Source of the DNA: Blastococcus capsensis
GTDB lineage: Bacteria; Actinomycetota; Actinomycetes; Mycobacteriales; Geodermatophilaceae
Reading direction: 5' to 3'
Assembly (NCBI RefSeq): GCF_030165005.1
Contig: NZ_JASNNW010000009.1
Coordinates: 62,001 to 126,000 of the forward strand
Length of the DNA: 64,000 nt
Shown here: positions 8,267-50,318 of the stretch, piece by piece
How the letters are laid out: every line of letters begins with the position of its first letter
How positions within the stretch are numbered: the first letter of the stretch is position 1
Position numbers and translations under genes: made by a program
The notes under the pieces: generated by a model
Database searches by the model: none
What the model saw: the letters and a program-made list of their open reading frames with translations, nothing else
What the model was told of the DNA's origin: nothing

Positions 8267-8276
8267 CGGGCGGCCA

Positions 8277-11526: not shown

Positions 11527-11532
11527 CCGGCC

Positions 11533-11667: not shown

Positions 11668-11678
11668 GTTCGGCGAAC
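11668..11678 (+). promoter_or_regulatory. Palindrome in the clpX leader, possible operator
   Basis: GTTCGGCGAAC is a perfect 5+1+5 palindrome 145 nt upstream of clpX. Actinobacterial clp genes are activated by ClgR, whose sites contain GTTCGC/GCG-like half-sites, so a ClgR site is possible. This assignment is inference. The rest of 11575-11822 shows only the GGAGG ribosome site at 11811-11815. Confidence 0.35.
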
Positions 11679-11822
11679 ACCCGATCCCCGGCCGACAGTG
11701 CCGGGAGAAGAGCCTCGCGGGACAGCTTGTCAGCGGGGTCGAGCAGGGGTAGCAAGCAGCGCACATCCAACCCGCGGGTACCTGGCACCAGGACCGGCGA
11801 CTGTCGAGGTGGAGGTCAGCAG

Positions 11823-35671: not shown

Positions 35672-37090
35672 TTGACCGCGCCGTCGGGGTCGACGGTCGG
35701 GCACGGCGGGCTCGCCGGGCACCTCGACGCGTTCGTGCGCGCCGTGCGGGAGGCCGGGATCCCCGTGGGGATCAGCCAGGCCGTCGACGCCGCCGAGATC
35801 CTCACCGTCGTCGACCTGCTCGACCGGGAGCAGCTGCGCCACGGGCTCGCGGCGGTGCTGCTGCAGCGGGCCGCCCAGCGCGATGCCTACGACGTGCTGT
35901 TCGACCTGTGGTGGCCACTGGGCGACCGGCCGGCGGCCGAGGGCGAGGACGGGGCGGGCGAGCCGGGGGAGTCCACGCTCGACGTCCCCGACGGGGAGGC
36001 GCTGGCCGAGGACATGCGCGCCGAGCTGCTCCGGCTGCTCGAGGACGGCGATCCGGAAGCCCTGCGCCGGTTCGCCCGGGACGCCGTCGACCTGCTGGGC
36101 CGCGGTCAGCCGGCGCCGTCGGGGCAGTCGTACTTCAGCTACCGGGTCATGCGGGCACTGTCGCCGGACACCCTGGTGGCTCAGCTGCTGGCCGGGCTGC
36201 TCGGCGACGCCGGCCGGGGCGGGCTGGCCGAGCAGGTGGCCCGGCAGACCGTGCGCGACCGGCTGGCCGCCTTCCGGGGCGCCGTGGAGGCCGAGGTGCG
36301 GCGGCGGACCGCGGCCGAGAAGGGGCGCGACCGCGTCGCCAAGAACGCCGTCCGGCCGCTGGTCGACCAGGTGGACTTCCTCCGGGCGCAGTCCGCCGAC
36401 CTCGCCGAGCTGCGCCGTGCGGTGGCACCGCTGGCCCGGCGCCTGGCGGTCCGGCTCTCCGCCCGCCGCCGGTTGGGCCGGGAGGGCCGGCTGGACTTCC
36501 GCAAGACCGTCCGCGCCTCCCTGGGCACCGGTGGGGTACCCGTGGTCACCCACCACCGGCCGCGCAAGGTGCACAAGCCGGAGCTGGTGGTGCTCTGCGA
36601 CGTCAGCGGCTCGGTGGCCGGGTTCAGTCACTTCACCCTGATGCTCACCCAGGCCCTGCGCGAGCACTTCACCGGAGTGCGCGCCTTCGCCTTCGTGGAC
36701 TCCACCGACGAGGTGACCCGCTTCTTCCGCCCCGGCGTCGACGTGGCCGACGCCATCGTCCGCATCGGCCGGGAGGCGCAGGTGGTCGCCTTCGACGGGC
36801 ACAGCGACTACGGCAACGCCTTCGACGTGTTCGCCGACCGGTGGGCGTCGGCGATCGGGCCGAAGACGTCGCTGCTCGTGCTCGGCGACGGGCGGACGAA
36901 CTACCGGCAGCCGGGTGTCCCGGTGCTGGCCGGCCTGGTGTCCAAGGCCCGGTCGGCGCACTGGCTGAACCCCGAGCCGCACCGGCTGTGGGGGAGCGGT
37001 GACTCCGCGGCCGACCGCTACGGCGAGGTCATCGACATGGTCGAGTGCCGGAACGCCGCGCAGCTGGCCGACTTCGTCACCACGCTGTAA
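35672..37090 (+). CDS. VWA-domain protein (CoxE-like), partner of the MoxR ATPase
   Basis: 472 residues from a TTG start at 35672. GGAG lies 5 nt upstream, and sequence before this point (Cys/Arg-rich) has no family character; a GTG at 35624 is the alternative. The N-terminal ~290 residues are helical. The von Willebrand A domain begins at PELVVLCDVSGSVAGFSHF with the MIDAS motif D-x-S-x-S; the later metal residues include DGHSDYGNAF. It probably binds the client or metal and is remodelled by the adjacent ATPase. The client is not evident. Confidence 0.88.
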   Translation: MTAPSGSTVGHGGLAGHLDAFVRAVREAGIPVGISQAVDAAEILTVVDLLDREQLRHGLAAVLLQRAAQRDAYDVLFDLWWPLGDRPAAEGEDGAGEPGESTLDVPDGEALAEDMRAELLRLLEDGDPEALRRFARDAVDLLGRGQPAPSGQSYFSYRVMRALSPDTLVAQLLAGLLGDAGRGGLAEQVARQTVRDRLAAFRGAVEAEVRRRTAAEKGRDRVAKNAVRPLVDQVDFLRAQSADLAELRRAVAPLARRLAVRLSARRRLGREGRLDFRKTVRASLGTGGVPVVTHHRPRKVHKPELVVLCDVSGSVAGFSHFTLMLTQALREHFTGVRAFAFVDSTDEVTRFFRPGVDVADAIVRIGREAQVVAFDGHSDYGNAFDVFADRWASAIGPKTSLLVLGDGRTNYRQPGVPVLAGLVSKARSAHWLNPEPHRLWGSGDSAADRYGEVIDMVECRNAAQLADFVTTL

Positions 37091-37213
37091 CAGGTTCTCG
37101 ATCCGGGCGACCGAGCCCTGCACCCGCAGCCTCGGGCGCCAATGAACCACAGGCATGCGGCCGGTCACGAGATGCAGTGCTCGACGAGCGCACATGGAAA
37201 CGCTGAGACAGTG

Positions 37214-37269
37214 TTGCGGCGCCGTGACGGTGTGCGGTGGCCAGTTTTCGCTCACGTGCCGCCGGGCAG
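37214..37269 (+). promoter_or_regulatory. Upstream element shared with the propeller gene at 48414
   Basis: TTGCGG (37214), TTTTC (37245) and CCGCCGGGCAG (37259-37269) recur with identical spacing 5' of the gene at 48414, with GTGAC also aligned between the first two. The element ends 67 nt before the ATG. I infer a common promoter or operator. The rest of 37091-37336 shows no other structure. Confidence 0.6.
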
Positions 37270-37336
37270 TCCCGGGCTTCTGCCGGCGAGTCCGCAGCCG
37301 ATCGGCGAGGTGGGCTCCACGAGATGGGACCCACGC

Positions 37337-39055
37337 ATGTCCTCCATGGTCGGAAAGCCCGGGAAGAGGTCCAGCCTCGCGTTGGCGCTCGCGCTGCTGA
37401 GTGCGGCGAGCGGTGCGGGTGTGGCAGCCGCTGACACGCACAGCCCGCCGTCGGCCGGCGAGGACGGGCACCACGCGACGGAGAGCGCAGGAGCCGCTGC
37501 CCACCCAGAAGAACCAGCGGGTGACGCCCCGCAGACGCCGGCTGCGACCGACGGCCTGCAACCGATCGAGGATCCGCTTCCGCCACCACCGTTGAGCGAT
37601 CTCCAGGTGGGGGTCGAGTTGGTGGCCGAGGGTTTCAAGAAGCCGACGAACAGCGCCGTCGCGCCCGGTGACCCGGACGCCCTGTACGTCTCCGACCAGT
37701 TCGGCCCGCTGTGGCGGGTGGATGTGCGGGACGGCAGCAAGACGATGGTCGCGGACCTGTCCGGCCTGCTGGTGCCGGTCGGGCTGACCATCGAGAGCGG
37801 AGCGCACCACGTCCCCGACGAGCGCGGCTTCCTGGGGGTGGCCTTCCACCCGGACTTCGAGAGCAACGGCCTGCTCTACACGCACACCTCCGAGCCGTCG
37901 GACAGCGGCGAGCCGACCTTCCCCTCGACACTGCCGCCCGGCGAGCGCGCCGACCACCGCGCCGTGCTACGGGAGTGGACGGTCCAGAGGTCCGCGGACG
38001 GTACGCCGAGCCTCGACGTGGACAGCTCACGGGTGCTGTTCAGCATCGCCGAGCCGCAGTGGAACCACAACGGAGGAGAGCTCCTCTTCGGACCGGACGG
38101 GATGCTCTACGTCCACCTCGGTGACGGCGGTGGCGCCGACGACCAGAACGAGCAGCTCTGGTGGATCGACCCCGACGACGACGGCACCTACACCCTCGGG
38201 CCGATCGCCGGGCACCTGGACGGCGGCAACGCCCAGGATCTGAGCGTCCCGCTGGGCAAGATCCTCCGCATCGACGTCGACGGGCGCGGCGCCCCGCACG
38301 GGGAGTACGGCGTCCCCGCGGACAACCCGTTCGTCGGCGTCGACGGAGCCCTGGGCGAGATCTGGGCCTACGGCCTGCGCAACCCCTTCCAGGGGTCGAT
38401 CGACCGCGCGACCGGTGACTACTGGGTCGGTGACGTCGGGCAGGGCGACGTCGAGGAGATCGACGTGATCCAGCGCGGCGGCAACTACGGCTGGAACGTC
38501 CGTGAGGGCGCCTTCTGGTTCGCCCCCCGCGGTTTCGAGCAGGGCAGCGGCACGGTCGTCGAGGAGCCCGTACAGCCGGTTCCGCCGGAGCTGGTGGACC
38601 CGGTCGCCCAGTACGACCACGAGTGGGGTGTGGCGGTCATCGGCGGTTACGTCTACCGCGGCCCGGACCAGCCGGCCCTGCAGGGGCAGTACGTCTTCGG
38701 CGACCACCACGGCGGCAAGCTGCTCGTCCACTCCGCCGAGGATCCGGCGCGCCAGCTCAGGATCGCCGGTTCCGAGAACAACGAGCTCGGGTTCTCGCTG
38801 ACGGCCTTCGCCGAGGACGCGCACGGCGAGCTCTACGTGATGGGATCCCCGCACGAGGGCAGTGGTCGCATCGAGCGGATCGTCCCGGCCGGCACCGATG
38901 GCATGGTCACAGTCCCTCGCGGCGGTGTCGCGGCCGGCGCCGGGGGTGCCGCCGACGACGGTACCGCGGCCACGGTGGCCGGGGTCGCCGCGCTGGCCGG
39001 GGCGACCGCGCTGGTGGGCGTGGGGATCGCGCGTCGTCGCACCGCGACGCGCTGA
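37337..39055 (+). CDS. Secreted PQQ-type glucose/sorbosone dehydrogenase-like propeller, wall-anchored
   Basis: 572 residues. A Sec signal peptide (KRSSLALALALLSAASG, ending at about AAA-D) precedes an acidic linker and a six-bladed propeller of the soluble glucose dehydrogenase family: RGFLGVAFHPDF, WNHNGGELLFGPDGMLYV, GDGGGADD, LGKILRIDVDG, WAYGLRNPF and GDVGQGDVEEI are family motifs. PQQ binding is inferred. The C-terminus (VPRGGVAAGAGGAA, hydrophobic stretch, RRRTATR) is a sorting signal nearly identical to that of the next gene and lacks LPXTG. ATG 37337 is chosen because it gives a proper signal peptide. The class F sortase is two genes downstream. Confidence 0.85.
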   Translation: MSSMVGKPGKRSSLALALALLSAASGAGVAAADTHSPPSAGEDGHHATESAGAAAHPEEPAGDAPQTPAATDGLQPIEDPLPPPPLSDLQVGVELVAEGFKKPTNSAVAPGDPDALYVSDQFGPLWRVDVRDGSKTMVADLSGLLVPVGLTIESGAHHVPDERGFLGVAFHPDFESNGLLYTHTSEPSDSGEPTFPSTLPPGERADHRAVLREWTVQRSADGTPSLDVDSSRVLFSIAEPQWNHNGGELLFGPDGMLYVHLGDGGGADDQNEQLWWIDPDDDGTYTLGPIAGHLDGGNAQDLSVPLGKILRIDVDGRGAPHGEYGVPADNPFVGVDGALGEIWAYGLRNPFQGSIDRATGDYWVGDVGQGDVEEIDVIQRGGNYGWNVREGAFWFAPRGFEQGSGTVVEEPVQPVPPELVDPVAQYDHEWGVAVIGGYVYRGPDQPALQGQYVFGDHHGGKLLVHSAEDPARQLRIAGSENNELGFSLTAFAEDAHGELYVMGSPHEGSGRIERIVPAGTDGMVTVPRGGVAAGAGGAADDGTAATVAGVAALAGATALVGVGIARRRTATR

Positions 39056-39078
39056 CGAAGCCGATCCCCGGAGGGCTG

Positions 39079-39124
39079 CGCGCAGTCCCCGTGGCCGCTG
39101 GCGCATCCTCGCGCGAGCGGCCAC
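39079..39124 (+). terminator. Hairpin repeat, copy 1, after the propeller gene
   Basis: GTGGCCGCT (39091-39099) pairs with AGCGGCCAC (39116-39124), with an inner GCGC/GCGC stem and loop ATCCTC. The segment 39079-39114 matches 50067-50102 at 33 of 36 positions. It probably terminates the propeller transcript before the spondin gene. The rest of 39125-39343 shows only the GAGGAG site. Confidence 0.65.
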
Positions 39125-39343
39125 GCGCCCTCTGGGACGTCGAACGGATATGCCGCTCCTGCTGCCGACTGTGCCGGGATCGGGGGGAGAAGTTGTCAGC
39201 CGTGTGACGAAACCCGCACCTCGCGAGCGGTGATCTGCGGGCGCTGCTGTTCTGAGCAGGGGCGTCGCCAAGGCGCCGGTGACCGAGCGGCGGATCCGTC
39301 AGGCGACAGCCGCCGCTCGACCAATCGACCCAGAGGAGACCAA

Positions 39344-40222
39344 GTGTTGAGGAAACTTGCAGGAGCGGGCGCTGCGACGCTCGTCAGCGCCGCTGCGATG
39401 GCGCCGGCGTCGGCGCTGGCCGCCGACGGGGAGACGACGTTCCGAGTGGAGGTCACCAACGTCACGAAGCAGACCGGGACGAAGGTGGAGACCCCGCAAG
39501 GGCCGATGCCGATCCCGCTTTCGCCCGGTGCGTTCGCCGTCTACTCCGGTCAGGACAACCCGGCGTTCACGGTCGGCGCCGAGGCAACCCAGCCCCTCGG
39601 TGGGGAGGGGCTGGAGAACATCGCCGAGGACGGCTTCCCGATGCAGCTGGCCCAGCAGTTCAAGGACGCGCCGATGGTGAGTGACAGTGGCACCTTCGCC
39701 GATCCGCAGGGACCGAAGAAGGCTTTGGAGCCCGGCATGAGCACTTCTTTCACCGTCACGGCGTCGCCGGGCGAGAAGCTCACGCTGGCGACGATGTTCG
39801 TCCCGTCCAACGACGCCTTCTACGGCCCCGCCGACGGCATCGAGCTGTTCGACTCCGGCGGCAACCCCGTCAGCGCGGACGTGACCAGCGCGATCGCGAC
39901 GTACGACGCGGGCACCGAGGTGAACGAGCCGTTCTTCGGGCCTGCCACCAAGCCCATGCAGCCGCAGCCGGACTTCGGTACCGCCGAGGATTCCGTCGTC
40001 CTGCCCGTGGCGGAGATCGAGGGGCAGCCGCAGGTCTACCCGGAGGTCGGCCAGGTCATCCGCGTGGCCATCGCACCGGCTCCGGCCGGGGGCGTCGCCG
40101 CCGGTGCCGGGGGTGCCGCCGAGGACGACACCGTCAGCACGGTGGCCGGGATCGCTGCGCTGGGCGGGGCGGCCCTGTTGGCGGGCATCGGCGTCACGCG
40201 CCGTCGCACTGCGACGCGCTGA
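39344..40222 (+). CDS. Secreted spondin-domain protein with class F sortase-type C-terminus
   Basis: 292 residues. GTG at 39344 has GAGGAG 5 nt upstream and gives a signal peptide (RKLAGAGAATLVSAAAM, cleavage near ALA-AD). Residues ~30-200 resemble Spondin_N: FRVEVTNVT, LSPGAFAVYSG, LENIAEDGFP and KLTLATMFVPSNDAFYG. Such domains bind surface or matrix ligands, and metal binding is likely. The C-terminus APAGGVAAGAGGAA, then a hydrophobic helix and RRRTATR, copies that of the upstream propeller. The sortase gene starts 8 nt after its stop, which supports its role as a substrate. Confidence 0.83.
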   Translation: MLRKLAGAGAATLVSAAAMAPASALAADGETTFRVEVTNVTKQTGTKVETPQGPMPIPLSPGAFAVYSGQDNPAFTVGAEATQPLGGEGLENIAEDGFPMQLAQQFKDAPMVSDSGTFADPQGPKKALEPGMSTSFTVTASPGEKLTLATMFVPSNDAFYGPADGIELFDSGGNPVSADVTSAIATYDAGTEVNEPFFGPATKPMQPQPDFGTAEDSVVLPVAEIEGQPQVYPEVGQVIRVAIAPAPAGGVAAGAGGAAEDDTVSTVAGIAALGGAALLAGIGVTRRRTATR

Positions 40223-40229
40223 CCCGGCG

Positions 40230-40934
40230 ATGCTGAAGCAGCAGGAGGAGCGATTCCGGAGACCGTGGTCTTCGGCGCTCCTGTTCGGGATGGCCGTGGT
40301 CCTCGCCGTTGCCGGTGTCCTCCTCCTGCTGCCTCCCGGCCTTCCCGACGCCTCGGTCCACACGCCTCTTCCGGCGGCCACCGCACCGGTCGCCGAGCCG
40401 GACGGCCGGCGCGACACGACCGACGGGAACCCGCGCAGCTCGCCCCTCGAACGCGCCCAGCCCATCCTCGAGCACCCGCCTGCCGGCGTGCCCTCGGCTC
40501 CGCCGGTGGGTGTGCGCGTCGACGCGATCGACGTCGACGCACGAGTCGTGCCGCTCGGGCTCGATGCCGACGGCCACCTGGAGGTGCCCGACGACTTCTC
40601 GGCCGCCGGCTGGTGGGAAGGCGGAGCCGAGCCCGGTGAGGCGGGACCGACGGTCGTGGTCGGCCACGTCGACTCCTACCAGGGTCCGGCCGTCTTCCAC
40701 CGGCTGCGGGACCTCGAGGTCGGCGACGAGATCGTCCTCACCGTCGAGGGCGGTGAGTCGGTGTCCTACCGGGTGACCGGCACCCAGGAGGTGCCGAAGG
40801 ACGAGTTCCCGACCGAGGCCGTCTACGGCACCACTCCTGGGCCGACGCTGCGTCTCATCACCTGCGGAGGCCCCTTCGACCGGACCGCGCGCAGCTACCT
40901 GAACAACACGATCGTCTTCGCGGACCTGAGCTGA
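40230..40934 (+). CDS. Class F sortase
   Basis: 234 residues. An N-terminal membrane anchor (LLFGMAVVLAVAGVLLLL, about residues 17-34) and a Pro/Ala-rich linker lead to the sortase beta-barrel. Catalytic His146 lies in VVVGHVDSYQG, Cys212 in TLRLITCGG (the TLxTC motif) and the Arg in DRTARSYLNN. It cuts sorting signals and joins proteins to the cell wall. Both flanking secreted proteins have a G-G-V-x-A-G-x-G tail instead of LPXTG, so its specificity is probably unusual. ATG 40230 follows the spondin stop by 7 nt. Its TGA overlaps an ATG that opens the frame of the downstream cyclase. Confidence 0.93.
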   Translation: MLKQQEERFRRPWSSALLFGMAVVLAVAGVLLLLPPGLPDASVHTPLPAATAPVAEPDGRRDTTDGNPRSSPLERAQPILEHPPAGVPSAPPVGVRVDAIDVDARVVPLGLDADGHLEVPDDFSAAGWWEGGAEPGEAGPTVVVGHVDSYQGPAVFHRLRDLEVGDEIVLTVEGGESVSYRVTGTQEVPKDEFPTEAVYGTTPGPTLRLITCGGPFDRTARSYLNNTIVFADLS

Positions 40935-41079
40935 TGCCTGAGCATGGTCTCGAGTCCGGCCGGCACGGCCCCTGCCGCGACCCGGCGCGTGGATCCGCCG
41001 AGCCGGCCGCGCGGCACCTTCCCGGGGCACGTGGCGGCGGCTGGTCACCGGCGCAGGGCCTGGTCACGGCCGGGATCGG

Positions 41080-41107
41080 TTTAGCGAAGCCCGATAGAGG
41101 TCAGTCT
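41080..41107 (+). promoter_or_regulatory. Candidate promoter of the ebo operon
   Basis: TTTAGC (41080-41085), a 16-nt spacer and CAGTCT (41102-41107); the -10-like box ends 6 nt before the ATG at 41114. The area is the most A/T-rich between the sortase and the cyclase. Both hexamers are weak, but the leaderless spacing matches other genes in the window. Confidence 0.4.
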
Positions 41108-41113
41108 GGGACA

Positions 41114-42292
41114 ATGCATACCGCCCCGCAGCCGGATCGCAGAAGTCGGACCGGACTATGGCTCATCGGCGGGCGCGGCTCGGTGGCCACGACGGCGATC
41201 GTGGGGGCGGCGCTCGTCGAGGCCGGGCTGTCGCCGCAGACGGGCTTCGTGACGGCGCTCGAACCGTTCCAGCAGGCGGGTCTGGGCCGCGCCACGGACG
41301 TGGTGTTCGGCGGCCACGACATCGCGACCGTCCCGCTGCAGAAGCGCGCGGAGATCCTCACGGACGGTGGCGTGCTGCCGCAGGGCGCCGTCCGTGCAGT
41401 GACCGAGCAGCTCGACCGGGTCGACGCGGAGATCCTGGCGGCTCCCGGCGCCGGAACGCCACCATCGGTCGCACTGGAGCGGCTCGTCGCAGACCTGCGC
41501 ACGTTCCGGAACCGCCACGGGCTCGACCGCGTCGTCGTGGTCGACGTCTCCTCCACCGAGGCGCCCGTACCGGCCCACCCGGCCCACCGGGACCTGGCCG
41601 GGCTCCGCCGGGCGCTCGAACGGGGGGAGGACGTCCTTCCGCCGAGCTCCCTGTACGCCATGGCGGCCTTCGAGGCCGGCTGCCCGCACGTGTCCTTCAC
41701 GCCGTCCACCGGGGCGCGCCTGCCGGCCCTGGACGAGCTGGCCCAGGAACGCGGCCTGCCGTACGCGGGCTCCGACGGCAAGACGGGGGAGACCCTGCTC
41801 CGGACTGCGCTCGCCCCGATGTTCGCCACCCGCAACCTCACCGTGCGGTCCTGGAGCGGTACCAACCTGCTGGGGGGCGGGGACGGCGAGACCCTGGCCG
41901 ACCCCGCGCACGCCGCCTCCAAGCTCGACTCCAAGTCCGGCGTCCTGGGCGCTCTGCTCGGCTACGACGTCGTCGCGCCGCTGCACATCGACAACGTCCC
42001 GGACATGGGCGACTGGAAGACCTCGTGGGACCACGTCAGCTTCGAGGGATTCCTCGGTACCCGGATGCGGATGCAGGTGACCTGGGAGGGGTGCGACTCC
42101 GCGCTGGCGGCGCCGCTGGTCCTGGACCTCGCCCATCTCCTCGCGCACGCGCACGGGGCCGGCCTGTCCGGGCCGGTCCCGGAACTGGCCTTCTTCTTCA
42201 AGGATCCGCTCGGCCGGGTGCCGACCCACGGTGTGGAGCAGCAGTTCGCCACGCTGGTGCGCTGGGCCGAGGGCCTCGGGGGCGGCCGGTGA
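41114..42292 (+). CDS. Inositol-3-phosphate synthase-family cyclase heading the ebo operon
   Basis: 392 residues. GLWLIGGRGSVATT is the NAD-binding loop, VVVVDVSSTEAP and GSDGKTGETLLRTALAP are the sugar-phosphate and phosphate-binding region, and WSGTNLLGGGDGETL and VTWEGCDSALAAPLVLDLA match the C-terminal MIPS motifs. The family converts glucose-6-phosphate to myo-inositol-3-phosphate; the exact substrate here is inferred. Start 41114 is where homology begins. The frame is open 60 codons further, back to an ATG overlapping the sortase stop. In canonical ebo clusters the sugar-phosphate cyclase is EboD (dehydroquinate-synthase-like), so this looks like a functional replacement. Confidence 0.87.
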   Translation: MHTAPQPDRRSRTGLWLIGGRGSVATTAIVGAALVEAGLSPQTGFVTALEPFQQAGLGRATDVVFGGHDIATVPLQKRAEILTDGGVLPQGAVRAVTEQLDRVDAEILAAPGAGTPPSVALERLVADLRTFRNRHGLDRVVVVDVSSTEAPVPAHPAHRDLAGLRRALERGEDVLPPSSLYAMAAFEAGCPHVSFTPSTGARLPALDELAQERGLPYAGSDGKTGETLLRTALAPMFATRNLTVRSWSGTNLLGGGDGETLADPAHAASKLDSKSGVLGALLGYDVVAPLHIDNVPDMGDWKTSWDHVSFEGFLGTRMRMQVTWEGCDSALAAPLVLDLAHLLAHAHGAGLSGPVPELAFFFKDPLGRVPTHGVEQQFATLVRWAEGLGGGR

Positions 42293-43167
42293 CCCGCTGG
42301 GCTGCCGGGCCGCTCATCGAGCTGGTACGGCTACCTGCCGTGCTCAGCATCCCCGGCGACGTCCTGGCCGGCGCCGCGGCGGCGGGACGGCGCGAGCCGC
42401 GCGCGACGGCCGGGACGGTGTTCGCCTCCGCCAGCGTCTACCTCGCCGGTATGGCCCTCAACGACTGGGCCGACCGGGACGTCGACGCGCGGGAACGCCC
42501 CGGACGCCCGATCCCGTCCGGCCGGATATCGCCCGCCTCCGCGTTCGGAGTCGCGGCCGGGCTGACCGGCGCCGGCCTGCTCGCGGCAGGTTCGGCGGGA
42601 GGACGGGACACCCTGGCGGTGTTCGGGCCGCTGGTGGCGGTGGCCTGGTCCTACGACCTCGTCCTCAAGGACACGATGGCCGGGCCGGTCGCGATGGCCG
42701 CGGCCCGGTCGCTCAACGTCCTGGCCGGCGCCGGCGGGCACGGCGCCCGGCGGGCGTTGGCCGACGCGCTCACCGTGGGCGCCCACACCGGCATCCTGAC
42801 GGTGGTCAGCCGGTCGGAGGTCGGCGGCGCTTCCCCTGCGCTGGGGCGGGCCGCGGGTGCGGCCACCGGCATCCTGGCCGGGATGACGGCGGCGCGGGCC
42901 TGGAGAACGACGGACGCGCCTGCGGCTCGCGCCGTCGCGCTCGCCTGCGTGGCCCGCTACGCGGTCGACGTGGGCGGCGCCGCGCTGGCCGCGACCCGCA
43001 TGCCCTCGGCCGCCCGGCTCCAGCAGTTCGTCGCCCGGGGGATCCGCGCCTTCCCGATCCTGGACGGCGCGCTGATCGCCGCGCGCGGACGCATCGGGAC
43101 CGGGCTGGCGGTGGCCGCCCTGCACCCGCTGGCCGGCCGGCTCGGCCGGCGGGTGGCGACGACGTGA
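42289..43167 (+). CDS. eboC: UbiA-family prenyltransferase EboC
   Basis: 292 residues with about eight membrane helices. The first Asp-rich motif is NDWADRDVDARERPGRPIPS (N-D-x2-D-x3-D plus the RPxRPI element), which binds prenyl diphosphate through magnesium. The second motif region (SYDLVLKDTMAGPVAM) is less acidic than usual, as in EboC-like proteins. It would attach a polyprenyl chain to a small molecule in the membrane. The GTG start overlaps the cyclase stop, and the stop overlaps the next start, so translation is coupled on both sides. Confidence 0.88.
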   Translation: MTRWAAGPLIELVRLPAVLSIPGDVLAGAAAAGRREPRATAGTVFASASVYLAGMALNDWADRDVDARERPGRPIPSGRISPASAFGVAAGLTGAGLLAAGSAGGRDTLAVFGPLVAVAWSYDLVLKDTMAGPVAMAAARSLNVLAGAGGHGARRALADALTVGAHTGILTVVSRSEVGGASPALGRAAGAATGILAGMTAARAWRTTDAPAARAVALACVARYAVDVGGAALAATRMPSAARLQQFVARGIRAFPILDGALIAARGRIGTGLAVAALHPLAGRLGRRVATT

Positions 43168-44027
43168 CCGCGCCCCTGCGGTTCGCCTACGGGACCAACG
43201 GGCTGGCCGACAACCGGCTGCCCGAGGCCGTGGACCTGCTCGCCGATCTCGGCTACGACGGGGTGGCGCTGACCCTGGACGTGCACCACCTGGATCCCTT
43301 CTCCCCCACGTCGGACGCGGACGTCCAACGGGTCGCGCAGCAGCTCCGGGCCCGCGGCCTCGCCGTGGTCGTCGAGACCGGCGGCCGCTATGTCCTCGAC
43401 CCCCGCCGCAAGCACCGTCCGACGCTGCTCGATGAGGATCCCCGGCTACGCCGGGAGTTCCTGCAGCGGGCCGTCGAGATCGCCGCGAACCTGGGAGCCT
43501 CGGTGGTCTCGTTCTGGTCCGGTTCGCTGCCCGCGGGAACGGCACCCGCGACGGCCTGGGCCCGGCTGACGGAAGAGGTGGCCGGGTTGCTGCCCCATGC
43601 CGAGATGCACGGCGTCCGGCTCGGGTTCGAGCCGGAGCCGGGCATGCTCGTCGACCGGATCACCGGGTTCGAACGGCTCGCCGCCGAGCTGGGGGACCCC
43701 GCCGGCCTGGGAATCACCCTCGATCTGGGGCACTGCCTGTGCATCGAGGACGACCCGGTGGTCGACTGCGTGCGCCGGGTCGCCGGCCGGCTGGTCAACG
43801 TGCAGATCGAGGACATGCGCCGCGGAGTGCACGAGCACCTCCCGTTCGGTGAGGGAGAGCTCGACGTGCCGCCCGTGCTGGCCGCGCTGCGCGAGGTCGG
43901 CTACTCCGGCCTCGTGGGTGTGGAGCTGCCCCGTCACAGCCATGCGGGCCCGGACCTGGCCGAGGCGTCCATCCGGTTCCTGCGGTCGGCCGAGGAGCGT
44001 GCCGGCGCGACCCGGGGCGTGGCATGA
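43164..44027 (+). CDS. Xylose isomerase-like TIM barrel (sugar phosphate isomerase/epimerase)
   Basis: 287 residues of the AP-endonuclease 2/xylose isomerase-like fold. Strand ends carrying metal ligands are visible: RLGFEPEPGM (Glu), ITLDLGHCL (Asp, His), NVQIEDMRRG (Glu) and VGVELPRHSH (Glu, His). Such enzymes isomerise or epimerise sugars or cyclitols such as inosose. It sits between EboC and EboA with 4-nt overlaps, so it acts in the same pathway. It is a second TIM-barrel member in addition to EboE. A cyclitol substrate is inferred from the inositol-phosphate synthase two genes upstream. Confidence 0.82.
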   Translation: MTAPLRFAYGTNGLADNRLPEAVDLLADLGYDGVALTLDVHHLDPFSPTSDADVQRVAQQLRARGLAVVVETGGRYVLDPRRKHRPTLLDEDPRLRREFLQRAVEIAANLGASVVSFWSGSLPAGTAPATAWARLTEEVAGLLPHAEMHGVRLGFEPEPGMLVDRITGFERLAAELGDPAGLGITLDLGHCLCIEDDPVVDCVRRVAGRLVNVQIEDMRRGVHEHLPFGEGELDVPPVLAALREVGYSGLVGVELPRHSHAGPDLAEASIRFLRSAEERAGATRGVA

Positions 44028-44734
44028 CCGGCGACGAGCTCCGGCAGCTGCTGGACCGGGAGCTGGAGCCGGCGGGCCGGGCCTGGCTCGCCGGGGCGGA
44101 GGCCGCGGTCCGGAAGGATCCTCGCGTCGTCCAGACGGCCTTTCCCGCCGCCGGGCGGTCCGTGGGCCGCCGGCTGCTGGCCGGCGATCCACCCACCGGG
44201 TGGACGGCCGACGACGCCGCGCGTGCGCTGCTGCTGATCACGCTGGGCGACGCGGCCGGCGAGCAGGTGCCCGACCTGTTCGGCTACGGCGACGCCGACG
44301 AGCAGCGGGCCGTCGTCCGCTCGCTGCACCTGCTGCCACCCGTGCCCGGGGCCGCCGAGCTGGTGGCGGCGGCGTCGCGCTCCAACGACCGGCGGCTGGT
44401 CGCGGCCTCCCTGGGGCCGTGGGCGCTGGCGCACCTCGACGACGAGGCGGTCGCCCAGTCGGTGCTCAAGTGCGTCTTCCAGGAGGTTCCCCTGACCGGG
44501 CTCCCCGGCCTGGCCGAGCGCGCCACCCCCCGGCTGTCGCGAATGCTGGCCGAGCTCGCGCACGAGCGGATCGCCGCCGGGCGGCCCGTCCCCGAGGACG
44601 TCTGGCCGCTGATCGAACGGTTCCCGCCCGAGGACACGCTCGCCCGGATCGAGGCCGAGCAGGAGCACCCGGTACCGGAGCGCCGCGCCGCGGCACGAGC
44701 CGCGCTGGCGTCCCGACGAGGACAGGAGACCTGA
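44024..44734 (+). CDS. eboA: EboA-domain protein
   Basis: 236 residues, largely helical and soluble. The order of features (ELRQLLDRELEP start, GWTADDAARALLLITLGD, EQRAVVRSLHLLP, FQEVPLTGLPGLAERAT with LSRMLAELAHERIAAGRPV) fits the EboA family, with repeat-like helical pairs. No catalytic motif is visible. EboA is required in characterised ebo clusters, but its biochemical role is unknown. It overlaps the TIM-barrel gene by 4 nt, and its TGA overlaps the eboB ATG by one base. Confidence 0.85.
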   Translation: MTGDELRQLLDRELEPAGRAWLAGAEAAVRKDPRVVQTAFPAAGRSVGRRLLAGDPPTGWTADDAARALLLITLGDAAGEQVPDLFGYGDADEQRAVVRSLHLLPPVPGAAELVAAASRSNDRRLVAASLGPWALAHLDDEAVAQSVLKCVFQEVPLTGLPGLAERATPRLSRMLAELAHERIAAGRPVPEDVWPLIERFPPEDTLARIEAEQEHPVPERRAAARAALASRRGQET

Positions 44735-45600
44735 TGCGCATCTTCGATCCGCACATCCACATGAGCTCACGGACCACCGACGACTACGAGGCGATGTATG
44801 CGGCCGGGGTCCGGGCCATCGTCGAGCCGGCGTTCTGGCTCGGTCAGCCGCGGACGTCGGTGGGCAGCTTCGTCGACTACTTCCAGTCGCTGCTCGGCTG
44901 GGAACGGTTCCGCGCGAGCCAGTTCGGCATCCGGCACCACTGCACCATCGCGCTCAACCCCAAGGAGGCCAACGACCCCGGCCTGCGCACGGAGGTGCTG
45001 AGCATCCTGCCGCGGTTCCTCGCCAAGGACGGCGTCGTGGCCGTCGGCGAGGTCGGCTACGACTCGGCCACCCCCGACGAGGACGCCGCCTTCGAGGAAC
45101 AGGTCGCGATGGGCCAGGAACACCGGCTGCCGCTGCTGGTGCACACCCCGCACCGGGACAAGGCCGCCGGCACCCGGCGCAGCATCGACCTGCTGCGCGC
45201 GGCCGGCGTGCCCGGCGAGATGGCGGTCATCGACCACAACAACGAGCTGACCGTCGAGGACACCCTCGACTCCGGCTACTGGGCCGGCTTCTCGGTCTAC
45301 CCGGACACCAAGATGGACGTCGACCGGATGGTGCGGATCCTGCAGCAGTACGGCACCGACCGGATCCTGGTGAACTCGGCCGCGGACTGGGGCCGCAGCG
45401 ATCCGCTGCGGGTGCGCAAGGTGGCCGATGCGATGACGGCCGCCGGGTTCGACGCCGACGACGTCGACAAGGTCGTCTGGCGCAACCCGGTCGAGTTCTT
45501 CGGCCGGAGCGGGCGGCTGGAGCTCGACGAGCCGGCGCCCGACGCCGCGGCGACCTTCGCCGGCAACAGCATCCTGCGCGGCGCCCCGGCCGGGTCCTGA
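44734..45600 (+). CDS. eboB: TatD-like metal-dependent hydrolase EboB
   Basis: 288 residues of the amidohydrolase/TatD superfamily. The metal motif H-x-H is in MRIFDPHIHMSSRTTDDY, the bridging Glu in AVGEVGYDSA, further His in LLVHTPHRDK and VIDHNNE, and the last Asp in VNSAADWGRSDPL. The family includes phosphodiesterase or nuclease activities; EboB's real substrate is not known. ATG 44734 overlaps the EboA stop, with AGGAGA just upstream. EboE follows after 1 nt. Confidence 0.87.
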   Translation: MRIFDPHIHMSSRTTDDYEAMYAAGVRAIVEPAFWLGQPRTSVGSFVDYFQSLLGWERFRASQFGIRHHCTIALNPKEANDPGLRTEVLSILPRFLAKDGVVAVGEVGYDSATPDEDAAFEEQVAMGQEHRLPLLVHTPHRDKAAGTRRSIDLLRAAGVPGEMAVIDHNNELTVEDTLDSGYWAGFSVYPDTKMDVDRMVRILQQYGTDRILVNSAADWGRSDPLRVRKVADAMTAAGFDADDVDKVVWRNPVEFFGRSGRLELDEPAPDAAATFAGNSILRGAPAGS

Positions 45601-45601
45601 C

Positions 45602-46771
45602 ATGCGGCTGAGCCGCGCCGGGGACGGGCCGATCCACCTCGGGTACTGCACGAACGTCCACCCGGCCGAGGACGTCGCCGGGATCGTCGACCAGCTACGC
45701 CGGCTGGCGGCGGGGGTCCGCGCCGAGCTGACATGGCCGCGGCTGGGCGTGGGCCTGTGGCTGCCGCGCACCGCGGCGACCGAGCTCGCCGACCCGGCGG
45801 CCTGCGCCCGCCTGCGGGAGGTGCTCGACGAGCTCGGCCTCGAGGTGGTCACCCTGAACGGCTTTCCGTACCAGGGGTTCCAGGAGGAGGTCGTCAAGCA
45901 CCGCGTCTACCGCCCGGACTGGACCGAGGACGCCCGCGTCACGTGGACCCTCGACCTCGCCCGCATCCTGGCCCGGCTGCTGCCCGACGACGTCGCGACC
46001 GGCTCGATCTCCACGCTCCCGCTGGGCTGGCGGGAGCCGTGGGACGACGCTGCCGACGTCGCAGCGATCGCCAACCTCCGCGCGGTCGGCGACGCGCTGG
46101 CCGCCCTCGAGGAGGAGACCGGGAAGCGGATCCTCCTGGCGATCGAGCCCGAGCCCGGCTGCCGGGTGGAGACCACGGCCGAGGCGGCGGCGGTCGCGGA
46201 GCGGGTCGGCCGGCCGCACGTCGGGATCTGCGTGGACCTGTGCCACCTCGCCGTCGAGTTCGAGGACCCGGTCGCGGCGATCGCCGCGCTCCAGGAACGC
46301 GGCACGCTGGTGGCCAAGGTGCAGGTGTCCAGCGCGCTGCGGGCGGAGGATCCGGACGACCCTGCGGTCCGGGCGGCGCTCGCCGGGTTCGACGAGGCCC
46401 GCTTCCTGCACCAGACCCGCGCCGGCGGGGACGGCGGAATCCGGGCGCGCGCGGACGACTTGGGCGAGGCCCTCGCCGGCGCCGTCCCCGTCGACGCGGA
46501 GTGGCGGGTGCACTTCCACGCGCCGCTGCAGGCCGCGGCCCTCCCGCCGCTGGGCACCACCCGGTCCGAGCTGGAGACGGCGCTGCAGCAGCTGGTCGGG
46601 CCGGGCCGGGTGCTGACCCGGCACCTGGAGCTGGAGACCTACACCTGGACGGTCCTGCCGCCCGACCGGCGGCCGGCCGGCGACGACTCGCTGGTCTCCG
46701 CGCTCGCCGAGGAACTGCGGTACGTGGCCGGGCGGCTCCGCTCGCTCGGCTGGACGAAGGAGGAGGAATGA
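45602..46771 (+). CDS. eboE: Metabolite traffic protein EboE
   Basis: 389 residues. HLGYCTNVHPAEDVAGIVDQL is the characteristic EboE start, followed by LGVGLWLPRTAATEL, VVTLNGFPYQGF and STLPLGWR. The barrel metal region is ILLAIEPEPGCRVETT and VGICVDLCHLAVEFEDP. EboE is related to xylose isomerase-like TIM barrels but has its own conserved N- and C-terminal parts (EWRVHFHAPLQ, HLELETYTWTVLP). It overlaps eboF by 4 nt. In cyanobacteria the ebo set is needed for moving a scytonemin precursor to the periplasm; the reaction of EboE is not known. Confidence 0.92.
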   Translation: MRLSRAGDGPIHLGYCTNVHPAEDVAGIVDQLRRLAAGVRAELTWPRLGVGLWLPRTAATELADPAACARLREVLDELGLEVVTLNGFPYQGFQEEVVKHRVYRPDWTEDARVTWTLDLARILARLLPDDVATGSISTLPLGWREPWDDAADVAAIANLRAVGDALAALEEETGKRILLAIEPEPGCRVETTAEAAAVAERVGRPHVGICVDLCHLAVEFEDPVAAIAALQERGTLVAKVQVSSALRAEDPDDPAVRAALAGFDEARFLHQTRAGGDGGIRARADDLGEALAGAVPVDAEWRVHFHAPLQAAALPPLGTTRSELETALQQLVGPGRVLTRHLELETYTWTVLPPDRRPAGDDSLVSALAEELRYVAGRLRSLGWTKEEE

Positions 46772-48147
46772 GCCGTCGCCCGGTGGTGGTGCTCGACGTG
46801 GTGGGGCTGACCCCGCGCTTGCTCGAGCACATGCCCGCGGTACGAGCCGTGGCCGACGACGGGTTCGCCGCCGAGCTCGGCACGGTCCTGCCGGCGGTCA
46901 CGTGCAGTGCGCAGGCGACCCTGCTGACCGGGACGCTGCCCCGCGAGCACGGCATCGTCGGCAACGGCTGGTACTTCCGCGACCTCGGCGACGTGCTGCT
47001 CTGGCGCCAGCACGACCGCCTCGTGCAGGCCGAGCGGATCTGGGACACCGCCCGCCGCCTGGATCCGGAGCACCGGACGGCGAACCTGTTCTGGTGGTAC
47101 GCCATGGGCGCCCGCGCCGACGTCACGGCCACGCCGCGGCCGGTCTACCACGCCGACGGCCGCAAGGACCCGGACTTCTACATCCGCCCGCCGGAGCTGC
47201 ACGACCAGCTGGAGTCCGAACTCGGCACCTTTCCCCTCTTCAACTACTGGGGCCCGACGGCAGGGATCGCCTCCTCGCAGTGGATCGCCCAGGCCGCGCA
47301 GCTGGTGCAGCGCACCCGGCAGCCGGACCTGCTGCTCACCTACGTGCCGCACCTGGACTACGCGCTGCAGCGGCACGGGCCCACCGGTCCGGAGGCGATC
47401 GCGGCGGCCCGGGAGCTCGACGCGGTGCTCGCCGGGCTGATCGGCGAGGCGCGGGACCGCGGCGCGGCCGTCGTCGTGCTCTCCGAGTACGGCATCACCG
47501 ACGCCGCCCGCCCGGTCGACATCAACCGGGCCCTGCGCCGCGAGGGATTGCTGGAGGTGCACACCCAGCAGGGCATGGAGTACCTCGACCCGATGGCCTC
47601 GCGTGCCTTCGCCGTCGCCGACCACCAGATCGCGCACGTCTACGTCCGGGACGAGCAGGACGTCCCCCGGGTCGCCGCGCTGCTGGCCGAGCTCGAGGGT
47701 GTGGCCGAGGTGCTCGACGCCGAGGGCAAGCGCCGGGCCGGGCTGGACCACGAGAGGTCCGGGGAACTGGTCGCGGTCGCCGCGCCGGACGCCTGGTTCA
47801 CCTACTACTACTGGCTCGACGACGACCGCGCCCCCGACTTCGCCAAGCTGGTCGAGATCCACCGCAAACCCGGCTACGACCCCGCCGAGCTCTTCCTCGA
47901 CCCCGCCGACCCGCTGGTCAAGGCCCGCGCCGGGCTCGCCCTGGCCCGCAAGAAGCTCGGCTTCCGCTACACCATGGACGTGGTGCCGCTGGACCCGTCC
48001 CCGGTCCGCGGCTCGCACGGCCGGCTGCCCGACGACCCCCGGGACGGCCCGGTCCTGCTCTGCTCGGACCCATCCCTCACCCGCGACCGCATGGCCGCCA
48101 CCGACGTGCGGGACCTCCTCCTGCGGCTCAACGGCTTTCCTCGGTGA
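46768..48147 (+). CDS. eboF: Alkaline phosphatase-superfamily hydrolase EboF
   Basis: 459 residues, nucleotide pyrophosphatase/phosphodiesterase type. The first metal Asp is in VVVLDVVGLTPRLL, the nucleophile region is AVTCSAQATLLTGTLPREHG (Thr or Ser), and later metal ligands are in LTYVPHLDYALQRHGP and VVLSEYGITDA. No signal peptide is seen, so it is probably cytoplasmic or membrane-associated. It would cleave a phosphodiester or phosphate, fitting removal of phosphate from a cyclitol or prenyl-linked intermediate. It is the last gene of the coupled operon and starts inside the EboE stop (ATGA). Confidence 0.9.
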   Translation: MSRRPVVVLDVVGLTPRLLEHMPAVRAVADDGFAAELGTVLPAVTCSAQATLLTGTLPREHGIVGNGWYFRDLGDVLLWRQHDRLVQAERIWDTARRLDPEHRTANLFWWYAMGARADVTATPRPVYHADGRKDPDFYIRPPELHDQLESELGTFPLFNYWGPTAGIASSQWIAQAAQLVQRTRQPDLLLTYVPHLDYALQRHGPTGPEAIAAARELDAVLAGLIGEARDRGAAVVVLSEYGITDAARPVDINRALRREGLLEVHTQQGMEYLDPMASRAFAVADHQIAHVYVRDEQDVPRVAALLAELEGVAEVLDAEGKRRAGLDHERSGELVAVAAPDAWFTYYYWLDDDRAPDFAKLVEIHRKPGYDPAELFLDPADPLVKARAGLALARKKLGFRYTMDVVPLDPSPVRGSHGRLPDDPRDGPVLLCSDPSLTRDRMAATDVRDLLLRLNGFPR

Positions 48148-48274
48148 CCCCTCCGCTGCTGTGGCGGCGGAAGGCTCCGTCGGCCGATCTCCGCGGCGGT
48201 ACGCCGCCGTCCCCTTCTGCTGCAGGCCCTGTCCACACCACGGCGGCACAGCTCCTTGCGTTCCGTGACGAATC

Positions 48275-48330
48275 TTGCGGTCGTGTGACACGTCACAGCG
48301 ACCGGTTTTCTGGTGTGGGCCGGCGGGCAG
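48275..48330 (+). promoter_or_regulatory. Upstream element shared with the propeller gene at 37337
   Basis: TTGCGG (48275), TTTTC (48306) and CCGGCGGGCAG (48320-48330) occur at the same spacing as in 37214-37269. GTGAC is also aligned. It lies 83 nt before the start codon, between eboF and the last gene of the island. Confidence 0.6.
48284..48297 (+). promoter_or_regulatory. Inverted repeat inside the shared upstream element
   Basis: TGTGACACGTCACA has 6-bp arms around AC. It resembles a CRP/GlxR operator (TGTGA-N6-TCACA) but with a 4-nt spacer, so a true CRP-family site is doubtful. The equivalent place upstream of the 37337 gene keeps only the GTGAC half. Confidence 0.4.
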
Positions 48331-48413
48331 GCGCCGAACCGGCCGTGAACCCACTGGCCGGTGTCGAGGTGGCTCGTCCCTGACCAGCGACGGTCCACGG
48401 AAGCAGGAGCGCT

Positions 48414-50042
48414 ATGTCCGACATGAGCAGGACCGTGACGAGAAGGTTCAGCGCCGCAGTGGCGCTGGGGTTGCTGGGTACGGCGAGCAGCGTAGGCGCG
48501 ACGGGGGCGGCGGCGGCGCCCGCGTCGCCGGCGGGTGGTGAGTTCGACCTGCCCGAGGGGTACCAGATCGAGCAGGTCGTCGGCGGGCTGCAGCTGCCCA
48601 GCTCCCTGACCTGGGACGACGAAGGGCGCATGTACGTGGGCGAGGCCGGCAGCGGGCTCTTCCCCGAGCAGCTCGCGCCCATCCGGATCCTCGAGGTCGC
48701 GAACGGGCAGGCGACGCCGGTCATCGAGCTCGACGAGGCGATCGAGCCTGCGCTGGTCGGCCTGAAGTGGCACGACGGCGCCTTCTACTTCACCCACCGC
48801 GCCGACGACCTCACCGGGGCGGTGTCGCGAGCGACGCCCGACGGTGAGGTGGAGTTGCTGTTCGACGGGATCATCGACAGCCAGGCGGAGCACCAGATCA
48901 ACGACATCGACGTCGGGCCGGACGGCCGGATGTACGTGTCGGTCGGACCGGCCGGAAACGCCGGGGTGATGGGTCCCTCGACCGCTCCCTGGATCATGAA
49001 GAGCCCGGGCGTGCACACCACGCCCTGCGAGGACATCGTGCTCACCGGGCACAACTTCGAGACCCCGAACTTCCTGACCGAGGACCCGGACGACAAGGTG
49101 CTCACGGGGGCCTACGTCCCGTTCGGGACCGCGACCGAGCCCGGGCAGGTGATCGAGGGCGTGGAGAAGTGCGGCGGCTCGATCCTGACCTTCGACCCGG
49201 ACAATGCCGAGGAGACGATCGAGACCCACGCCTGGGGCTTCCGCAACCTGCTCGGCCTCACCTGGACCGAGGACGGCGAGATGTTCGCCGTCGAGAACGG
49301 CTACGACATCCGTGGGTCCCGCCCGGTGCAGGGCGAGATCGACGCGTCGCTGCGGATCGAGCCCGGCCGCTGGTACGGGATCCCCGAGTACTCCGCCAGC
49401 CGTGAGCCGCTGACCGAGCCGAAGTTCGAGCCGCCGGACGAGTTCCAGGTGCCGGTCTTCCTCGGCACCGACGAGCCCCTGGGCAAGATCCTCGGATCGG
49501 TGATCGACGTGGAGGCCAGTGGCCTGACCCCGCCCGATCCCGCGTGGATCCTGGGACGGCACACCGTCAACTCGTCTCCGTCCATGGCCGACATCGCGCC
49601 GCAGGACTGGGGGGAGTTCGGTGGGCAGATGATGGTCGCCGAGTGGGGGGACCTCGCGCCGCCGACCAACCCGCTGCGCAAGGAGAACGTCGGTCGCCAG
49701 GTGGTGGCGGTCGACACCGAGACCGGCGAGATCACGCCGTTCGTGAAGGGCGACCCCATCGCCCGTCCGTTCGACGTGCAGTTCGGCCCGGACGGCGCGA
49801 TGTACATCGTCGACTACGGCGTCGTGAACATCGACATGGAGCTCAAGCCCCCGTACGCCTATGAGCCGGGCACCGGCGGCATCTGGAAGGTGACCCGGAT
49901 GCCGGTCGGCGGCGTCGACGCCGGCGGCGGCAGCACCGCCGGTGTCGAGTCGATGGGCCTGTTCCTCCTCGGCGGCACGGCTCTGGCCGGTGCGGCCGTC
50001 GCGGGCGCCGTGGTCGTCCGCCGCCGCGCCGAGCACGGCTGA
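48414..50042 (+). CDS. Secreted sorbosone dehydrogenase-like propeller, wall-anchored
   Basis: 542 residues. Signal peptide (RRFSAAVALGLLGTASSVG, cleavage near AAA-AP), then a beta-propeller with blade motifs LPSSLTWDDEGRMYVGEAG, NDIDVGPDGRMYVSVGPAG, WGFRNLLGLTWTEDGEMFAV and FDVQFGPDGAMYIVDYG, as in glucose/sorbosone dehydrogenases. The tail PVGGVDAGGGSTAG, then a hydrophobic helix and VVVRRRAEHG, is the same type of sorting signal as in the two proteins by the sortase, though more divergent. The cofactor (PQQ) and sugar substrate are inferred. AGGAG lies 4 nt upstream of ATG 48414. Shared 5' and 3' elements tie it to the gene at 37337. Confidence 0.83.
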   Translation: MSDMSRTVTRRFSAAVALGLLGTASSVGATGAAAAPASPAGGEFDLPEGYQIEQVVGGLQLPSSLTWDDEGRMYVGEAGSGLFPEQLAPIRILEVANGQATPVIELDEAIEPALVGLKWHDGAFYFTHRADDLTGAVSRATPDGEVELLFDGIIDSQAEHQINDIDVGPDGRMYVSVGPAGNAGVMGPSTAPWIMKSPGVHTTPCEDIVLTGHNFETPNFLTEDPDDKVLTGAYVPFGTATEPGQVIEGVEKCGGSILTFDPDNAEETIETHAWGFRNLLGLTWTEDGEMFAVENGYDIRGSRPVQGEIDASLRIEPGRWYGIPEYSASREPLTEPKFEPPDEFQVPVFLGTDEPLGKILGSVIDVEASGLTPPDPAWILGRHTVNSSPSMADIAPQDWGEFGGQMMVAEWGDLAPPTNPLRKENVGRQVVAVDTETGEITPFVKGDPIARPFDVQFGPDGAMYIVDYGVVNIDMELKPPYAYEPGTGGIWKVTRMPVGGVDAGGGSTAGVESMGLFLLGGTALAGAAVAGAVVVRRRAEHG

Positions 50043-50066
50043 CCCCAGCCGTCGGCGCGCGGAGCA

Positions 50067-50115
50067 CGCGCAGTACCCGTGGCCGCTGGCGCGTTCTCGC
50101 GCCGGCGGCCACGGG
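50067..50115 (+). terminator. Hairpin repeat, copy 2, after the last island gene
   Basis: A 17-bp stem (50076-50092 with 50099-50115, one T-G pair) around loop GTTCTC, beginning 33 nt after the stop. It shares 33 of 36 positions with the copy at 39079-39114. It probably ends the island's transcription. Confidence 0.75.
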
Positions 50116-50318
50116 CCTGCTTGCCGCCGGGCACCTCTGGCGTGGCCGGCCACGACCTGCTCGGGATCGGGACGTGGTCACCGCGAATCGACGACCGGCC
50201 GGTACTCGAACCCGGGAACCTGTCGACCTGTCGCCATGACGACGCGCCACGGCGACGCCCGGCACCCCGCTGTTCCCATGCGCGGCCGTAACCGATCGGG
50301 CTCGGAACCGTTGGTCAC

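Follow-up and report, generated by a model that had tools for sequence, protein, structure and literature searches.

A variant ebo cluster in Blastococcus capsensis with a myo-inositol phosphate synthase homologue in the place of EboD

The ebo gene cluster was named in 2016, when its product was unknown, and the published set includes EboD, a cyclase resembling dehydroquinate synthase (PMC5133447, section 3.4). What would an ebo cluster lacking this cyclase make, and for which partners? The question is raised by a stretch of 64,000 nucleotides from Blastococcus capsensis (contig NZ_JASNNW010000009.1, positions 62,001 to 126,000; hereafter the window), in which seven open reading frames at 41114–48147 lie head to tail on one strand, none of them interrupted, as a preliminary description of the locus had reported. 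Their order is MIPS-C-XI-A-B-E-F, where MIPS is a homologue of myo-inositol phosphate synthase, XI an additional xylose-isomerase-like barrel and the single letters stand for Ebo proteins. Nearly all junctions had been said to overlap by 1–4 nt, and five of the six do (42289–42292, 43164–43167, 44024–44027, 44734 and 46768–46771), EboB and EboE being separated by a 1-nt gap. Judging from sequence, this operon is a variant ebo cluster, with relatives of five canonical members (EboC, EboA, EboB, EboE and EboF), MIPS in the place of EboD, and XI as an extra gene.

Of the six genes that the preliminary description had matched to the ebo set, these five stood, and the barrel called XI falls outside EboA–F. 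The gene in front had been called a sugar-phosphate cyclase; a cyclase it appears to be, but its kinship to MIPS (PF07994/PF01658) and its replacement of EboD had been missed. The profile searches prescribed for EboA and EboE gave a clear answer for EboE, which scored well over the cut-off of 250 bits, and a divided one for EboA, which passed the domain model NF035938 (cut-off 50) but reached only 78.5 bits with the stricter family model NF035937 (cut-off 320). Similarly, the prenyltransferase passed the SCO3242-family model but reached only 112 bits with its sister, the EboC equivalog model (cut-off 250). Residues were well kept across the aligned proteins: Y51, N58, D59, D62, D66, D123 and R140 of EboC in 44 of 44; E156, D187 and H190 of XI in 90 of 90, with E254 in 89; and E106, H137, H140, H168 and D218 of EboB in 96 of 96, with H7 and H9 in 93. 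The window EboB is 42–59% identical to the EboB proteins of seven EboD-type loci. A fold search of the PDB with the predicted EboA structure gave no match at E<=0.001, the top matches being helical-repeat proteins with low TM-scores. For EboE the leading fold matches were ketose 3-epimerases, too general a result for a substrate to be read from the fold.

The closest PDB relative of the window cyclase is entry 1U1I (E=1.6e-69), a MIPS from Archaeoglobus. K274, K363 and N251 of the window protein align with the three sites that have been mutated to alanine in 3qvw, 3qvx and 3qw2, and N251, K270, K274, K302 and K363 are invariant in all 19 ebo-linked MIPS proteins aligned. In these alignments, the ebo-linked MIPS retains the tested catalytic residues. 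A TIGR03450 score of 18.4 bits (cut-off 638) rules out that the window cyclase is the canonical INO1 of actinobacteria. In a 24-row tree built without canonical INO1, the 16 actinobacterial ebo-MIPS sequences formed one clade (support 100/99), four haloarchaeal sequences, three of them ebo-linked, formed a separate one (100/100), and the Gemmatirosa sequence was weakly placed.

In order to see how general this arrangement is, we compared 98 actinobacterial ebo loci, consisting of 13 loci from a phylum sample, five hand-picked plasmid loci and 80 named loci, the top of at least 577 by score. A degraded phylum-sample locus (L032) was left out, although its contig is included as L099, and one strain is represented by two assemblies (L052 and L053). 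Among the plasmid matches listed (EboE, 40 of 48 records; EboB, 52 of 52; MIPS, 59 of 59) a selection was analysed. A plasmid locus with a lone eboE was left out of the 98; this single gene (L048, 9971–11149), from Streptomyces sp. NBC_01244, lies within a type II polyketide cluster. The linkage foreseen in the preliminary description is borne out: the same seven genes occur in the window order on a single strand in 66 of the 98 loci (70 if extra matches between them are allowed), the remainder reflecting truncation at contig edges, unrecognised genes, a MIPS-less subtype and one degraded copy. XI and EboA are fused in 16 of the 80 named loci. MIPS was present in 76 of the 98 loci and EboD in none; EboD queries matched nothing there, which rules out an EboD concealed in or near the operon. 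Among 14 plasmid loci from outside the actinobacteria, nine carried EboD (Azospirillum, Salipiger, Ketogulonicigenium, two Deinococcus, Mycetohabitans, Aureibacter, Gloeothece and Roseivivax), four carried MIPS (Gemmatirosa and three haloarchaea), one had neither in the stretch examined (Haladaptatus, L180) and none had both. In the loci examined, as recognised by these searches, MIPS and EboD are therefore mutually exclusive. Gemmatirosa and the haloarchaea had XI matches along with MIPS; no XI match was found in the nine EboD-type loci, although in Ketogulonicigenium a sugar phosphate isomerase/epimerase is annotated next to the cluster. EboA and EboE queries had no match in the haloarchaeal loci, which thus represent a reduced or diverged form. 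That two unrelated cyclases have been swapped points to a cyclitol as the common core of the pathway.

The MIPS-less subtype was found chiefly in Streptomyces. An ebo-type MIPS match was present elsewhere in 12 of 13 such genomes tested (split in two pieces in one of them), and in eight of the 12 stretches examined this distant MIPS sits within another ebo cluster. Six of these streptomycete clusters (L020, L051, L067, L074, L075 and L127) have in common an upstream flavin adenine dinucleotide oxidoreductase and an inositol monophosphatase family gene, and five of the six have a downstream P450. Three EboD-type loci from different phyla (L040, L041 and L042) have a ferritin-like protein and a hypothetical protein of ~590–660 aa near ebo. 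MIPS also leads clusters of another kind: in Roseomonas it is accompanied by a methyltransferase, Gfo/Idh, an MBL-fold protein, YcaO, a PF01261 barrel, a glycosyltransferase and PIG-L, and Hymenobacter has a related set (L186, 7977–17152; L187, 7584–16285; L192 in genome G315, 1974–11855). In a same-genus relative of the window, a MIPS (39% identity) and a barrel (45% to XI) lie ~5 kb apart, and MIPS with a barrel seems to be a pairing that recurs.

A simple explanation for the cyclase would be plain primary metabolism, in which MIPS merely supplies myo-inositol and its adjacency to ebo is incidental. The retained catalytic residues agree with this, but the genome holds, elsewhere, a second MIPS-domain gene with the look of a canonical INO1 (G000:C14), and the frequency of MIPS in ebo loci and the single actinobacterial ebo-MIPS clade also speak against it; we regard it as very improbable. 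Nor did we find ebo to be a core function of the lineage, an idea that was rejected: EboE is present in one genome among the 112 from the window's family and in 14 of 296 in the phylum sample (the window's genome included).

The last gene of the operon departs from its family. EboF had been counted as the phosphatase of the enzyme set, a reading now doubtful, as it has SEYG where the phosphonoacetate hydrolase 3szy has ADHG in the alignment. The Asp-His of the xDHG motif, which serves to bind metal in the PF01663 family of metal-dependent phosphodiesterases, is absent from the window protein. E240 and Y241 are present in 93 of 93 actinobacterial EboF proteins aligned, EYG is found in 14 of 14 EboF proteins spanning the MIPS type, the EboD type and archaea, and the N-terminal Asp is substituted in nine of the same 14. 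By alignment, EboF is without part of the family metal motif, which makes phosphatase weaker as its default function. The published prediction of a hydrolase was made, in the section concerned, without discussion of these positions (PMC5133447, section 3.4).

For the product, the preliminary description had suggested a prenylated cyclitol-like molecule, which fits the predicted enzyme set and is an idea already in print (PMC5133447, sections 3.4 and 3.7; PMC6282210, Discussion). Beyond what comparison of sequences establishes, namely the gene identities, the motifs kept except in EboF, the gene order, the exclusion of MIPS and EboD and the linkage of the MIPS type to a dehydrogenase described below, we tentatively propose, as a possible reading, that the MIPS-type cluster makes a prenylated cyclitol lipid serving extracytoplasmic oxidoreductases, an activity that is predicted. 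From a sugar phosphate, MIPS would form a cyclitol resembling inositol phosphate; EboB, together with the isomerase/dehydratase-type barrels XI and EboE, would remodel it, and EboC would join a prenyl chain to it at the membrane. EboA, and perhaps EboF, would be partners without a catalytic or hydrolytic role. In vitro, EboC homologues from flavobacteria transferred farnesyl to six of 14 aromatic acceptors, quinoline types best, and not to phenols or catechols (PMC9235831). The lipid would remain in the cytoplasmic membrane and serve extracytoplasmic beta-propeller oxidoreductases, either as a carrier bringing them their substrate or as a cofactor or electron acceptor. In the window these would be two proteins flanking the operon, one like glucose/sorbosone dehydrogenase (GSDH) and one like ScyE, which an adjacent class F sortase could anchor to the surface.

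The evidence for such partners comes from the neighbouring genes. A GSDH protein adjoins ebo in 45 of the 98 loci, on the same strand in 43 and within 2.5 kb in 41; 40 of these loci were recovered with the window protein as the sole query, and the 37 named ones are spread over 21 genera. Chance would account for about 1.2 of 98 loci (294 Pfam GSDH matches in 38 genomes, 1.01 per Mb), a comparison weakened by the use of a profile built from these very loci for the neighbours and of the Pfam model for the background. GSDH is the one neighbour whose count was compared with a genome background. All 45 GSDH loci carry MIPS. On a quick EboB tree of 95 rows (three of the 98 loci gave none, and 18 rows with <4 kb on a side were unlabelled), the GSDH label switches at least 16 times among the 77 labelled loci, so that this is not one inherited arrangement. 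In two proteins that were scanned (L105 and L057), GSDH, PKD, CBM6, ThuA and 3-keto-disaccharide hydrolase domains lie in one chain. Outside the actinobacteria, a pyrroloquinoline quinone (PQQ)-dependent sugar dehydrogenase is annotated near two of the four haloarchaeal loci (Halocatena, which also has ThuA, and Natronococcus), the Haladaptatus locus has DUF1080 and Gfo/Idh, and a PQQ-dependent dehydrogenase of another kind is annotated near the EboD-type cluster of Salipiger. That MIPS-type clusters repeatedly lie near secreted sugar dehydrogenases, both among actinobacteria and at two of the four haloarchaeal loci, offers a concrete hypothesis for the role of the product.

Several observations weigh against our proposal. 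GSDH is missing from 53 of the 98 loci, including every one of the 22 without MIPS (many of which are truncated), and the same hidden Markov model did not find it in the nine EboD-type loci, so that the link would be specific to the MIPS type and leaves EboD-type clusters unexplained; the stretch of Halobaculum has no such oxidation-type neighbour. The 80 named loci, as the best-scoring of at least 577, are biased to close relatives, and kinship inflates the counts. In 12 loci with 4 kb upstream, one of them degraded, there is no MIPS in cis. A five-membered-cyclitol-phosphate synthase is a distant relative of the window MIPS, and MIPS homologues can give rise to rings other than inositol. The ScyE-like protein scored 51.4 bits with the ScyD/ScyE model NF033206, under its cut-off of 80, and, of the three proteins proposed as sortase substrates, the GSDH-like and spondin-domain ones are under the GVDTG_CTERM cut-off. 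Some streptomycete ebo clusters adjoin non-ribosomal peptide synthetase or type II polyketide genes, the confinement of the monomer to the cytoplasm in ebo mutants favours translocation (Klicki 2018), and no ebo product was found reported in the literature searched.

Some of these points are better accommodated by the published model, in which the ebo lipid is a general exporter aid carrying small metabolites of any pathway over the membrane, sugar oxidation being one client. In Nostoc, ebo is required for a metabolite to reach the periplasm, and mutants build up, in the cytoplasm, the scytonemin monomer that secreted ScyE would use (PMC6282210); these localisation data favour a carrier role by analogy, which the sugar-import neighbours described below do not. 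Neighbouring peptide and polyketide genes fit a general helper role, as do EboD-type loci without GSDH and the listing of SCO3242 and the next-numbered SCO3243, called myo-inositol phosphate synthase, with the CDA antibiotic cluster of Streptomyces coelicolor (PMC3610822). On the other hand, a general exporter gives no reason for GSDH to adjoin 45 of the 76 MIPS-bearing loci, nor for import-type sugar ABC genes, whose direction is contrary to export, in about a quarter of the 98. We hold this model to be somewhat doubtful for the MIPS-type cluster, with a real chance nonetheless; the export role advanced in the preliminary description is thus one hypothesis, the MIPS-type neighbours pointing equally to secreted sugar oxidation and sugar uptake. 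As separate observations, a complete MIPS-ebo set adjoins polyketide-type genes in L044, and on a Streptomyces camelliae plasmid (L045, 4221–5423) a ScyD/ScyE-family gene lies immediately upstream of MIPS, with an aromatic prenyltransferase and a multicopper oxidase downstream.

The uptake genes suggest a further explanation, that the MIPS-ebo enzymes are accessories of carbohydrate catabolism, modifying an imported keto-sugar or cyclitol with no lipid carrier or cofactor. A PF01261 barrel neighbour, whose representative, on inspection by eye, begins with a twin-arginine-like sequence, was found in 43 loci, a second barrel in 28, a sugar ABC ATPase in 25, a permease/binding protein in 24, Gfo/Idh in 23, ROK in 19 and, within the examined stretch, polyprenyl synthetase genes in 11 of 98. 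These counts are single-linkage clusters at >80 bits, in which multi-domain proteins can chain; L056, for instance, is labelled ThuA/GSDH and lies outside the 45 GSDH loci. Long clusters such as L064 (Amycolatopsis), which runs ROK, ABC ATPase, two ABC permease/binding genes, Gfo/Idh, MIPS, C, an XI-A fusion, B, E, F, a GSDH giant and second and third barrels, agree with a catabolic role, as does a Gfo/Idh representative, whose top match is levoglucosan dehydrogenase (371.5 bits, under the cut-off of 650); the neighbours at levoglucosan loci are similar (PMC10066097). However, such a role leaves the membrane prenyltransferase and the occurrence of ebo beside scytonemin and polyketide genes unexplained, and no ABC, Gfo/Idh or ROK gene was among the window proteins searched at 35.6–51.2 kb; we therefore consider it decidedly unlikely.

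A bolder form of the proposal of a lipid for extracytoplasmic oxidoreductases would cover all ebo clusters. They would make one class of prenylated-cyclitol membrane lipid, which secreted beta-propeller oxidoreductases (ScyE, the GSDH/ThuA giants and PQQ-type sugar dehydrogenases) would use as a cofactor, as an electron acceptor or for docking; EboD and MIPS, two unrelated cyclases, would be alternative sources of the ring, by non-orthologous replacement within one pathway, and EboF would be a repurposed former phosphodiesterase. We think this unlikely, although, if true, the transport phenotype of Nostoc would be one outcome of lacking the lipid. As MIPS is well understood and its assay established, the first ebo step is directly testable.

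In the window, the operon forms part of a larger island, which contains the GSDH-like protein, a spondin-domain protein, the class F sortase, the seven ebo genes and the ScyE-like propeller (Table 1). The preliminary description had put the unit at the seven genes; flank comparisons in same-genus relatives place what was gained or lost at ~37.09–50.28 kb. The island flanks (window 37086 and 50283) are 35 bp apart in genome G316. Window positions 37089 and 48274 are 56 bp apart in G303, which has the ScyE-like gene without ebo. In G299, positions 37086 and 50432 are ~150 bp apart on contig C18, and another contig (L190, 5420–5634, near its end) bears an inverted 215-bp remnant of the EboF 3' end beside a ScyE-like gene, the vestige of an ebo cluster that was lost or rearranged. 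The island perhaps came or went in more than one step. A class F sortase was near ebo in only one of the 98 loci, 5.4 kb off and on the opposite strand, so that the sortase link is particular to the window island.

Table 1 Features of the variant ebo cluster and its island (positions in the window; pLDDT, predicted local distance difference test).
Feature	Position	Strand	Evidence
Island between VWA-protein gene and nadD	37090–50282		Flank comparison with relatives
GSDH-like beta-propeller, probably secreted, weak C-terminal sorting signal, start uncertain	37142–39055	+	PF07995 116.5 bits; GVDTG_CTERM 18.8, below cut-off 29
Spondin-domain protein, weak C-terminal sorting signal	39230–40222	+	NF038123 113.6 bits, cut-off 40; GVDTG_CTERM 21.3, below cut-off 29
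Class F sortase	40104–40934	+	NF033748 175.5 bits, cut-off 166; true start probably ~40230 (by eye)
MIPS homologue, in EboD's place	41114–42292	+	PF07994 154.7 bits; PF01658 108.1 bits
EboC-type UbiA prenyltransferase, SCO3242 family	42289–43167	+	NF045897 316.5 bits, cut-off 260
XI, additional xylose-isomerase-like TIM barrel, accompanies MIPS	43164–44027	+	PF01261 150.6 bits
EboA, all-helical	44024–44734	+	NF035938 130.2 bits; model pLDDT 97.3
EboB, TatD-like metal-dependent hydrolase	44734–45600	+	PF01026 53.1 bits
EboE TIM barrel	45602–46771	+	NF035939 410.6 bits; model pLDDT 92.7
EboF, type I phosphodiesterase-like, motif changed	46768–48147	+	PF01663 224 bits
ScyE-like beta-propeller, probably secreted, GVDTG sorting signal	48414–50042	+	GVDTG_CTERM 34.5, cut-off 29

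Ebo clusters and the idea of a prenylated cyclitol are already known, and it is the MIPS-type cluster that appears new: no description of it or of the GSDH linkage was found in the literature searched, which excluded most subscription journals, and the word inositol is absent from the main text of PMC5133447, PMC6282210, PMC9235831 and PMC6092422. The levoglucosan (lgd) loci (PMC7676230, PMC10066097) resemble some relatives of the window cluster in their ABC importer, Gfo/Idh, PF01261 barrels and ROK, and differ from the window in these same genes, as noted above. SCO3242 belongs to the same prenyltransferase subfamily as the window EboC (NCBIfam 'SCO3242 family prenyltransferase'); it and SCO3243 are not termed an ebo variant in the available text of PMC3610822. 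An actinobacterial fusion of XI and EboA was mentioned as 'data not shown' (PMC5133447, section 3.4), with the same two domains that the window keeps in two genes with a 4-nt overlap.

The scytonemin locus of Nostoc likewise combines ebo, a secreted ScyE-type protein and a transpeptidase-type sorting enzyme, ScyD, ScyE and ScyF being putative PEP-CTERM proteins whose exosortase is required for scytonemin (PMC12188702). The window differs in having a class F sortase and a ScyE-like protein under the family cut-off; the parallel between exosortase and sortase-plus-propeller is suggestive and may be convergence. The closest comparison is with the canonical ebo operon of eustigmatophyte plastids, Bacteroidetes and cyanobacteria (PMC5133447, PMC6282210). 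The window has MIPS and an extra barrel instead of EboD, and another gene order; EboC, EboA, EboB, EboE and EboF are shared in one tight operon, the EboF motif change extends to the EboD-type EboF proteins examined, and a prenylated cyclitol is the likely product common to both.

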